From Corynebacterium jeddahense (GTDB taxonomy: Bacteria; Actinomycetota; Actinomycetes; Mycobacteriales; Mycobacteriaceae): DNA of 64,000 nt. Where the stretch lies: the NCBI RefSeq assembly GCF_028609865.1, contig NZ_CP063194.1, positions 558,001 through 622,000 of the forward strand, in the 5' to 3' direction. The position numbers were made by a program, and so were the translations under genes. Position 1 is the stretch's first letter. Every line of letters begins with the position of its first letter. This document shows, one piece after another, positions 41,380-44,360 of this stretch. The notes under the pieces were generated by a model, which saw nothing but the letters and a program-made list of their open reading frames with translations, was not told the origin of the DNA and made no database searches.

Positions 41380-41411
41380 GGGGACAGGGTAGCGGGGTGG
41401 TGGTGTGGCCC

Positions 41412-41417
41412 TACAAT
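41412..41417 (+). promoter_or_regulatory. -10 element of sigH (leaderless)
   Basis: TACAAT ends seven bases before ATG 41425. The in-frame ATG at 41416 overlaps this hexamer and is therefore an unlikely start. Confidence 0.6.
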
Positions 41418-41424
41418 GGCTGCC

Positions 41425-42084
41425 ATGCCCGAAACCGAGCTCGACCCCGCCGACGCAGGCGCCGACCTGAAGTCGCGCTTCACCGAGGAAGCGATGCCAC
41501 TGCTGGACCAGCTGTACGGCGGAGCGCTGCGCATGACCCGCAACCCGCAGGACGCCGAGGACCTCGTGCAGGAGACCTATTTAAAGGCGTACAAGGCGTT
41601 CGACAGCTTCAAGCCGGGGACCAACCTCAAGGCGTGGCTGTACCGGATTATGACGAACACGTACATCAACAACTACCGCAAGAAGCAGCGCCGCCCGCTG
41701 GTGACCTCCGCGGACGAGGTGACGGACAGCCAGCTGTACACGTCGAGCTCGCACGATTCCACCGGCCTCGAATCCGCCGAGGTGGAGGCGCTGAAGTCCA
41801 TGCCGAACTCGCAGATCTCGGACGCGCTCAACGCGCTCAACGAGGACTACCGCATGGTGGTGTACTACGCCGACGTGGAGGGCCTGTCGTACAAGGAAAT
41901 CGCCGACGTCATGGACATTCCCATGGGCACGGTGATGAGCCGGCTGCACCGGGGAAGAAAGCAACTGCGGGAGATGTTGAAGGACGTGGCACACGAACGG
42001 GGCATCGGCCTCGACCACGCCGACGGGGCAGCCGCTGCGGCGGCGAAACCGGAGGCTACAACGCAGGACGCGAAGGAGAAGTAA
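41425..42084 (+). CDS. sigH: ECF sigma factor SigH (SigR family)
   Basis: A 219-residue redox and heat-stress sigma factor. Region 2 covers about 15-90 ([58 protein letters not shown] in parts). Region 4 covers about 120-190 ([45 protein letters not shown] in parts). In C. glutamicum, SigH directs thioredoxin, mycothiol and chaperone genes and is held by RshA. The rshA start overlaps the stop codon. The visible promoter is a housekeeping-type -10; I see no clear GGAAT/GTT autoregulatory site. Confidence 0.96.
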
Positions 42085-42455: not shown

Positions 42456-42550
42456 TGCTGCCCGAAACGGGCCTGCAGCGCCGCGTTTGTCGACGCGTTC
42501 CGCGACGGGCGGCGAGCGGGGGTAATTTGCGGGGGTAGAGGGGGTTGACG

Positions 42551-42883
42551 TTCCGTTGAACAATCCGCAATCCGTTGAACATTCCGCGTGAGGGGCGAGG
42601 GTCAAGCGCGAGGCTGTTCGTTTCTGAGCCATTATAAGTGTGTATAACCAACGGTTAGTGCAGGTCGCGGCGGGGGTTGGGTCGACGTGTAAGAAATTAC
42701 CTGAGAATGCATAAAATACATGAATAGTTTATTGTTCAACAAACCATCTCGCGCCGATGATGGATCGTTCAACAAAGTGGAGAGGCGTCTATTTTCTGTC
42801 GCTCGATTGGTGAACAATCGGCAGTCCAGAACGGGTGAAAACGTTGAACAATCCGGAAACTTTGTTCAACGATCCGCCCCGAA
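42551..42883. repeat. Array of GTTGAACRATCC motifs in both orientations
   Basis: This AT-richer non-coding stretch between rshA and the metalloprotease gene holds seven copies of a motif of the form GTTGAACRATCC: plus strand at 42555, 42574, 42809 (GGTGAAC variant) and 42843; minus strand at 42731-42740, 42762-42773 and 42862-42870. Copies 1 and 2 are 19 bp apart. Copies 6 and 7 form a 9-bp-arm inverted repeat (42843-42851 with 42862-42870). A degenerate copy (GTTGACGTTCCG) lies at 42544. It looks like an operator array or iteron-like protein-binding region; the binding protein is unknown. I see no gene in 42456-42986 apart from a frame open from 42720 into the downstream gene. Confidence 0.8.
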
Positions 42884-42986
42884 AATGCTGGCGTCTCAGT
42901 TCGGTTTACCTGCGTATACACGGTGCATAAACTCAGGGGTGTCAACAGAACAAAGCCCCGCGGGGCACAACACGAGGAGTATCGAG

Positions 42987-44360
42987 ATGCGCGCCAACCT
43001 CCGCAACGGCATCGCAGTAGCACTCGCCGCCAGCCTTTCCCTCGCCGGTATGCACACGCCGGCTGCCGCCGATTCCGGCGCCGCCTTCGCGGAACTCGCC
43101 CCGATTCGCACGAACACGGCCGTGCTTGAGGACTCCGACCACGACGGCATCCCGGACATCTGGGAGGAGCAGGGCGTTGTCCTCTCCGACGGCACGGAGA
43201 TCCCCCTGCCGGACTGGGGCGCCGACCCGCACCGCCCGGATCTGTACCTCCAGCTGAACTGGATGAAGTCCGAGTACGACACCCTCGGCTGCAACGCCCG
43301 CGCCGCCGCCGCGTGCGCCGACGCCAACAGGAAGTCCTACGCTCCGAGCGTCGAGACGCTTGAGCAGCTCGTAAAGCTCTTCGACGACCACGGCATCAAC
43401 CTCCACATCGACGCGGGCGACGTGTACACGAACATCCCGAACTACGGCAAGCGCTTCGGCGGCGAGACGGTCGATTACGCGCCGGTCTACTTCGGGCCCG
43501 GCGAGCCGGAGGCGCGCAAGCTCCTCCGCAACATCGACGCCATCGGTGAGCGCCAGAACATCTTCCGCGTGGGCATCATCGGCGACCAGATGCGCCAGGA
43601 CTCCATGGCCTCGGGCATCGCGCTCGTCGGCGACAACTCCTTCTACGTGTCCAACAACGCGCGGATGACGACGCAGGAGCAGCTGCGCAACACGATCCTC
43701 CACGAGTTCGGCCACACGCTCGGCCTGCGCCACTACGGCGCCGCTGACTACACGACGGACATCAAGAACACGGCGCCGATGCAGGCCGGCTACAAGTCGG
43801 CGATGAACTACAAGTACCAGTTCAGCCACTTCGACTACTCCGACCAGCCGTACTTCGCCGACACGCCGGAGGGCAAGCGCTTCGTCCCGGCCGACTGGGA
43901 CGTGCTGCGCCTGGACAACAGCCGGATCGGCGCCTACGCCGAGTCCATCGGCGCCCGCGCCCACATCGAGGTCGCCGAGGTGAAGGCCGACGACATCGCG
44001 CCGGTCAAGGAGATCCCCGCTGAGGAGATCGCGGTGGCCGACGTCCCGGCCGCGGAGAAGGTCGCGGTCGAGGCTCCGGTCGAGGAGATCAAGGCTGCCA
44101 AGGCCGACAAGGCGGAGAAGGCCCCGGAGTCCTTCGGCGGCGAGCACATCGACAAGGACAAGAAGGTTGAGCAGCAGCCGGCGAAGGCTGAGGCAAAGGC
44201 CGAGAAGGCCGAGCAGGCCCAGCACAAGGTGGAGCAGGTGCAGGAGAAGGTGGCCAAGGACGCGCCCGCGGCCAAGGTGAACGTCGCGGCAATCGTCGGC
44301 TCGATCGTCGCCCTCCTCGCCATCCTCGGCGCCGGGTTCGCCTTCATGTCCATGCAGTAG
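42987..44360 (+). CDS. Secreted, membrane-anchored zinc metalloprotease with Ca-binding-type motif
   Basis: A 457-residue surface protein. Residues 1-28 are a signal peptide (cut likely after PAAA). A DSDHDGIPDIWEEQG motif near 48, as in calcium-binding type-3 repeats, precedes GADPHRPDLYLQLNWM. The catalytic site HEFGHTLGLRH is at 239-249 (HExxHxxGxxH, metzincin-like). Residues of about 315-430 are Lys/Glu/Ala-rich, probably helical or wall-spanning. A C-terminal hydrophobic helix (VAAIVGSIVALLAILGAGFAF) anchors it. GAGGAG at 42974-42979 supports ATG 42987. I do not know a characterised homologue. Upstream lies the GTTGAAC array. Confidence 0.85.
   Translation: MRANLRNGIAVALAASLSLAGMHTPAAADSGAAFAELAPIRTNTAVLEDSDHDGIPDIWEEQGVVLSDGTEIPLPDWGADPHRPDLYLQLNWMKSEYDTLGCNARAAAACADANRKSYAPSVETLEQLVKLFDDHGINLHIDAGDVYTNIPNYGKRFGGETVDYAPVYFGPGEPEARKLLRNIDAIGERQNIFRVGIIGDQMRQDSMASGIALVGDNSFYVSNNARMTTQEQLRNTILHEFGHTLGLRHYGAADYTTDIKNTAPMQAGYKSAMNYKYQFSHFDYSDQPYFADTPEGKRFVPADWDVLRLDNSRIGAYAESIGARAHIEVAEVKADDIAPVKEIPAEEIAVADVPAAEKVAVEAPVEEIKAAKADKAEKAPESFGGEHIDKDKKVEQQPAKAEAKAEKAEQAQHKVEQVQEKVAKDAPAAKVNVAAIVGSIVALLAILGAGFAFMSMQ

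Follow-up and report, generated by a model that had tools for sequence, protein, structure and literature searches.

The window analysed here, a stretch of 64,000 nucleotides from the genome of Corynebacterium jeddahense, carries a gene for a secreted or surface metalloprotease, upstream of which seven related palindromic sites, flanked by other short elements, are followed by a promoter-like pair of hexamers. The sites are named, from the gene-far to the gene-near end, c7, c6, c1, c2, c3, c4, and c5. The labels sigH, rshA, and whiB are those of an earlier reader or were assigned by eye, and weak gene calls are uncertain because our own gene caller was trained on nine stretches of which one (41400-42081) was in the wrong frame. 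In window coordinates, the features are as follows.

42517..42537, plus strand: tandem G-box CGGGGGTA-N5-CGGGGGTA, at the distal end of the module
42550..42566 (centre 42558), no strand: PxpR-type site c7, palindrome match
42569..42585 (centre 42577), no strand: PxpR-type site c6, 19 bp from c7
42707..42721, no strand: GCATANTATGC-like palindrome, degenerate in the window (2 mismatches)
42729..42745 (centre 42737), no strand: PxpR-type site c1, palindrome match
42762..42778 (centre 42770), no strand: PxpR-type site c2, 33 bp from c1
42804..42820 (centre 42812), no strand: PxpR-type site c3, 42 bp from c2; the best site, its mismatch position varying in all arrays
42838..42854 (centre 42846), no strand: PxpR-type site c4, 34 bp from c3; perfect right half, left half AAACG
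42859..42875 (centre 42867), no strand: PxpR-type site c5, 21 bp from c4; nearest the promoter
42905..42910, plus strand: -35-like hexamer TTTACC, 38 bp from c5
42928..42933, plus strand: -10-like hexamer TAAACT, 17 bp after TTTACC
42987..44360, plus strand: secreted or surface zincin metalloprotease, the presumed target, with a signal peptide-like start, HEFGHTLGLRH, SAMNY, and a hydrophobic C-terminus

A preliminary description of this DNA had reported seven close motif copies over 330 bp of AT-richer DNA between the sigH-rshA terminator and the protease gene, two of them 19 bp apart, and all of this was recovered. The motif GTTGAACRATCC, allowing up to two mismatches, has 10 matches in the 64-kb window, eight of them between 42555 and 42875; the matches at 42729 (minus) and 42734 (plus) are one palindromic place, leaving seven places in the array, the pair at 42558 and 42577 among them. 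GC content is 50% at 42541-42986 and 43% at 42690-42890, compared with 70% for the window. The inverted pair noted earlier (CGTTGAACAA / TTGTTCAACG) is present with arms of 10 bp rather than 9 bp, and copies in both orientations do occur, but this says little because GTTSAAC is its own reverse complement except at the centre. The unit of the array is a symmetrical 17-bp palindrome with the consensus GGATTGTTSAACAATCC. While the window-wide total of 10 GTTGAACRATCC matches is modestly above chance (mean 5.14; 10 reached in 4 of 100 shuffles), the clustering is marked: with up to six mismatches, the 17-bp palindrome occurs seven times in the 491 bp of 42500-42990, whereas 300 dinucleotide shuffles gave 0.18 on average and never more than 2.

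The zincin matches of the protease are weak (Reprolysin_5, 24.5 bits; cut-off 27). The array is followed by a member of the same metalloprotease family in 14 of the 14 arrays with a readable downstream gene (the window included), the 13 relatives being 41-56% identical to the window protein; 4 of the 32 arrays compared run into contig ends. Conservation of the motif upstream of orthologous proteases, raised in the preliminary description as a point on which an operator role would turn, was thus found. The protease family was matched in 11 of 121 genomes, with 18 matches in all, and array sites were present in the examined locus for six of these; the other 12 are more distant, have longer frames, and lack an array (one has a single site), so the arrays accompany short members of the family and not the family at large. 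At 2049 kb of genome G088 (L116), an array is separated from the end portion of a protease-like gene by a transposase-like frame, recognized by eye.

The spread of the array was assessed with a pattern based on the c3-c4-c5 geometry, searched with up to three mismatches in 242 Corynebacterium genomes (the control gave 2 matches). It matched 29 genomes, of which 11 were taken as array genomes (31 places, 0-2 mismatches); the other 18, comprising 17 with three-mismatch matches only and one (G010) with a single two-mismatch match, were put down to chance without individual inspection. The comparison set consists of 32 arrays, the window included, in 11 genomes, and this is a minimum number, since further sites lie at 66 kb in G133 and reduced arrays in G050 and G022 were missed by the geometry pattern. 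The exact pattern was found in 10 stretches of genome_contigs, a search from which records of or near the own genome were possibly left out; the 10 come from five Corynebacterium with names (C. haemomassiliense, C. wankanglinii, sp. MSK008, sp. Marseille-P4321, and sp. HMSC05H05). A second array in the C. jeddahense genome, at 13.2-13.5 kb near tRNA-Ile, tRNA-Ala, and gyrA, aligns with that of the window. Even scattering of the motif over the genome, the other outcome that the preliminary description had set against a dedicated operator, was not what was found in this genome, where the distribution is uneven in counts that exclude 600705-602357 and hence miss five of the window's seven sites.

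In 23 of the 30 arrays with a readable proximal block, sites lie at exactly -130, -97, -55, -21, and 0 relative to c5, corresponding to spacings of 33, 42, 34, and 21 bp for c1-c2, c2-c3, c3-c4, and c4-c5. Deviant arrays show a 1-bp shift (G088_17k, G130_C2_354k), have no c1 and c2 (G061_14k, G133_16k), have lost c3 by mutation (G061_583k), or show no c1 and have c2 10 bp closer (G236_135k, G049_14k). Among the 253 pairs formed by the 23 arrays, median identity is 0.89 in the sites versus 0.45 between them, and in the 119 pairs whose between-site identity is below 0.45 the means are 0.86 and 0.38, respectively. The distal part is looser: c7 and c6 are 19 bp apart in 17 of the 32 arrays, 29 or 47 bp apart in others, or a single distal site is seen, and the linker from the distal sites to c1 varies in length. 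At 10.5 bp per turn, the phases of c1-c3 and c4-c5 differ by between one quarter and one third of a turn, and not every distal change (19, 29, and 47 bp; linker to c1) amounts to a whole number of helical turns. Each site departs from the palindrome in a conserved way of its own, and the perfect 15-bp palindrome is absent from all 32 arrays, as expected if weak sites act together; in the window, c3 has one mismatch in 15 to the PxpR-type palindrome and the other sites have three to six in 17. The seven sites are a real unit, one rigid, conserved promoter module.

Reduced arrays in G050 (L242, L248) and G022 (L249) retain c7, c1, c2, and c4, with c3 and c5 absent. Their spacings are 33 bp for c1-c2 and 76 bp for c2-c4, and in G022 the distance from c1 to the -10 is 192 (191 in the window), with the G-box 11 bp nearer c7. 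Aligned to the array block without gaps, they are 42% identical, yet c1, c2, c4, and the -10 are still in place.

The tandem G-box, the GCATANTATGC-like palindrome, and the promoter-like hexamers are parts of the module beyond those in the preliminary description. TTTAC[CG]-N17-TAA follows the array in 30 of 30 readable arrays, although not every array has TAAACT in full (three G088 copies read TAACCT and one reads TAAAGT), and from this pair a transcript start near 42940 would be predicted in the window. The distance from c5 to TTTAC is 38 bp in 26 arrays, 28 in two, and 17 in two (30 readable of 32), differences of 10 and 21 bp; the c2-c3 spacing is 42 bp, or 32 in the two arrays in which c5 stands 28 bp from the hexamer. 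No array site overlaps or follows the promoter-like hexamers. In 26 of 32 arrays, GCATANTATGC (0-2 mismatches) occupies a fixed place, 27-28 bp ahead of the c1 position. All eight exact matches of the tandem G-box in a scan of four array genomes (G000, G049, G061, G016) are at arrays; in G022 and G050 the box is also present outside arrays. The presence of the G-box and of the GCATANTATGC palindrome suggests putative further factors. The G-box weakly resembles the RamA motif A/T/C-GGGG-N (PMC4847777). A one-mismatch tandem G-box also precedes a gene judged WhiB-like by eye in G049 and G016 (L251, L253), where PxpR-type sites are lacking; NCBIfam assigned no family to the WhiB-like protein. The open frame from ATG 42720 into the protease, noted earlier, is fortuitous because 13 of 13 readable relatives carry an in-frame stop between c5-56 and c5+108, which rules it out as coding through the array.

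The preliminary description had found no known corynebacterial site to fit the motif and had excluded LexA, GlxR, and Zur; the palindrome is, however, that of the PxpR operator, published in 2026. According to that report, PxpR is a GntR-type 5-oxoproline sensor of Corynebacterium glutamicum, encoded beside pxpTABC, that binds 5-oxoproline, represses pxpTABC, and is released by 5-oxoproline; its operator, agattgttcaacaatct, lies downstream of the putative -10, and changing or deleting it raised reporter output 6.5-fold (PMC13274462). The window sites are 17-bp inverted repeats of this kind, and the 17-bp AGATTGTTCAACAATCT at pxpT (PMC13274462) resembles the array consensus.

Exact copies of GATTGTTSAACAATC were found at 44 places in 37 of the 242 Corynebacterium genomes (control 0). 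Among 29 such loci examined, ten were assigned to pxpA, six to a pxpT-like transporter, seven to the interval between proB and proA, and four to a secreted 469-aa protein, and no gene was called at two. The pxpA and secreted-protein labels derive from blastp to own proteins, and those of the transporter, proA, and proB from one library test each, the remainder being labelled by likeness of start. The seven palindromes between proB and proA (L207, L211, L214, L217, L228-L230), all at loci of other Corynebacterium, would add proline synthesis to the regulon. The exact sites thus mark what is, by its predicted membership, a regulon of 5-oxoproline, glutamate, and proline metabolism together with secreted proteins. 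Outside the arrays of the own genome, exact TTGTTSAACAA occurs at three places, all between called genes: 16463 and 21172, before two tandem large proteins, and 782373, before a GntR gene. Very large proteins of secreted or surface type, encoded after crt-like genes, have single TTGTTGAACAA places some 250 bp upstream (L031:7464 and 12173, equivalent to own C1:16463 and 21172; L172:1537; L059:2597), and comparable single sites were noted ahead of a large surface-type gene in G049 and close to the second array in G016. The palindrome scan of the own genome gave 33 places, part of which are covered by the loci read.

The GntR gene, at 781.6 kb, encodes GntR and FCD domains and adjoins PxpA, and the same palindrome lies 94 bp upstream of it. 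A gene of this type was found in 11 of 11 array genomes, and ATTGTTSAACAAY lies 93-142 bp upstream in 14 of 14 close orthologues tested (76-100% identity), including those of G022, G050, and G114, genomes without an array by the geometry pattern. Among distant homologues (43-50% identity), retrieved like the others with one query only, 0 of 21 have the palindrome within 250 bp upstream and one of 21 has the exact site further off in the examined stretch; by coordinates, an exact site and a distant homologue share a contig in nine genomes, about 6 kb or less apart. The GntR protein of this clade is a candidate orthologue of C. glutamicum PxpR (Cg1143) by its pxpA linkage and the palindrome. The authors of the original report consider autoregulation of pxpR unlikely in C. 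glutamicum (PMC13274462).

The sites, their kept geometry, the match to the published operator, the PxpR-like gene with its own palindrome, and the single protease family downstream together lead us to read the array as a multi-site PxpR operator that probably sets transcription of the surface metalloprotease according to 5-oxoproline. Of the 'cooperative operator array' offered earlier as one option, the operator array is upheld by geometry kept across species and paralogous loci, by the same protease in 14 of 14 cases, and by the promoter-like pair; joint binding, like PxpR occupancy and the effect and sign of 5-oxoproline, is a prediction from the DNA. Seven imperfect 17-bp palindromes at fixed distances upstream of a sigma-A-type promoter would be bound together by several PxpR dimers, and these would influence RNA polymerase from their upstream position. 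PxpR would fill the array while 5-oxoproline is scarce; once 5-oxoproline accumulates, PxpR would be released and transcription of the surface metalloprotease would switch. The 0 of 21 distant homologues with a near upstream palindrome count against this reading, as does the position of the C. glutamicum operator downstream of the -10, where the array sites are upstream of the promoter. Also speaking against it are the distal spacings that do not fit helical turns, the hints of further factors in the G-box and GCATANTATGC, and the doubt about pxpR autoregulation in C. glutamicum.

As to the direction of that switch, activation by PxpR, with the protease on at low 5-oxoproline, may have slightly better than even chances, and repression from upstream falls slightly short of them. 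The lean to activation is owed to all sites lying upstream of the -35 and to the c5-promoter spacing changing in steps of about one and two helical turns; that c5 lies near -73 (or -63, -52) of the predicted start, resembling class I activator places, also favours it slightly. The known role of PxpR, repression, counts against activation. Either sign would be nutritionally sensible, in that proteases could be turned on by low 5-oxoproline or by host 5-oxoproline.

A fuller alternative is that PxpR binds as a repressor whose complex wraps or loops the DNA, or blocks activators at the G-box and GCATANTATGC, so that 5-oxoproline induces the protease. This has appreciable, though rather less than even, probability: it agrees with the repression of pxpTABC and its release by 5-oxoproline in C. 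glutamicum (PMC13274462), and with the other conserved elements between and beside the sites, while the absence of any site over or beyond the hexamers and the stepping of c5 by about helical turns fit it poorly. That another regulator of the same family or specificity occupies the array is unlikely. GntR/FCD regulators share the site type TNGTNNNACNA, which together with the single query used in the homologue searches would leave room for one; however, at the three exact non-array TTGTTSAACAA places of the own genome the only regulator neighbour is the GntR gene, and the 17-bp match to the published PxpR site (PMC13274462) is close.

The two further options of the preliminary description, a decayed repeat and an iteron-like or partition-like region, are unsupported. 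Some arrays arose recently by duplication together with their genes (six in G088, several of them almost the same), as a decayed mobile or dispersed repeat with spacing due to common descent only would have it, but under neutral decay sites and spacers should diverge equally, whereas sites are 86% identical and the intervening DNA 38% at unchanged length, and G050 and G022 keep the places of c1, c2, c4, and the -10 at 42% block identity; this explanation is very improbable. An iteron or partition region, which several related sites close together in AT-richer DNA might call to mind, is less credible still, since most array genomes hold at least two arrays, a promoter-like pair lies between array and gene, the readable neighbours belong to the protease family, and the neighbouring genes listed, part of which were searched against families, include no recognized rep or par gene.

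Also set aside were FtsR as the binder, whose published motif differs (PMC6683498), and IS ends as the origin of the array, as the repeated TAGTTGAACAA falls within a repeated 142-aa reading frame. An identical 142-aa frame occurs nine times in the own-genome stretches examined (L061, L062, L070, L072-L075), twice as inverted pairs about 1.2 kb apart, and is IS-like by its repetition.

Helically phased upstream activator sites are known from CRP class I promoters, and FadR is a dual regulator of the GntR/FCD type. The array is like class I promoters in that its proximal site lies near -73, -63, or -52 from the predicted start, with shifts of about one and two turns, and unlike them in its fixed pattern of five to seven sites and in that activation here is predicted. 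With the C. glutamicum system it shares a GntR-type regulator linked to pxpABC, but the pxpT operator is one near-perfect site, downstream of a putative -10, for repression of a catabolic operon (PMC13274462), whereas the protease promoter has five to seven imperfect sites upstream of it, at set distances. Composite Corynebacterium promoters with RamA, RamB, and GlxR sites, such as that of rpf2 (PMC4448153), are similar in bringing several regulators to a secreted-protein promoter, and the G-rich tandem box, resembling the RamA motif, extends the likeness; the array differs in that its repeated unit is the PxpR-type palindrome. The parts are of known kind; to judge from the literature searched, the arrangement and target are new, and keyword searches found no printed account of PxpR control of proteases.

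5-Oxoproline is a product of protein breakdown and a main component of the natural moisturising factor of skin. Tentatively, PxpR may have been recruited in a Corynebacterium clade, through a rigid, helically phased seven-site complex copied with each gene, to control a family of surface metalloproteases, with 5-oxoproline as feedback or host signal; we would place this a little below an even chance. What the 2026 report describes as a repressor of one catabolic operon (PMC13274462) would here have a rigid multi-site operator before a multiplied protease family, with single operators of the same type ahead of giant surface-type proteins and of a secreted protein. The arrays suggest that the timing of protease display in this group of species depends in part on the sensing of nutrients. 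If this holds, a sensor of catabolism has turned into a regulator of the cell surface whose small-molecule signal can be named, and the arrays, more than 30 in number, would offer natural promoter variants for studying cooperative, helically phased control in Actinobacteria.
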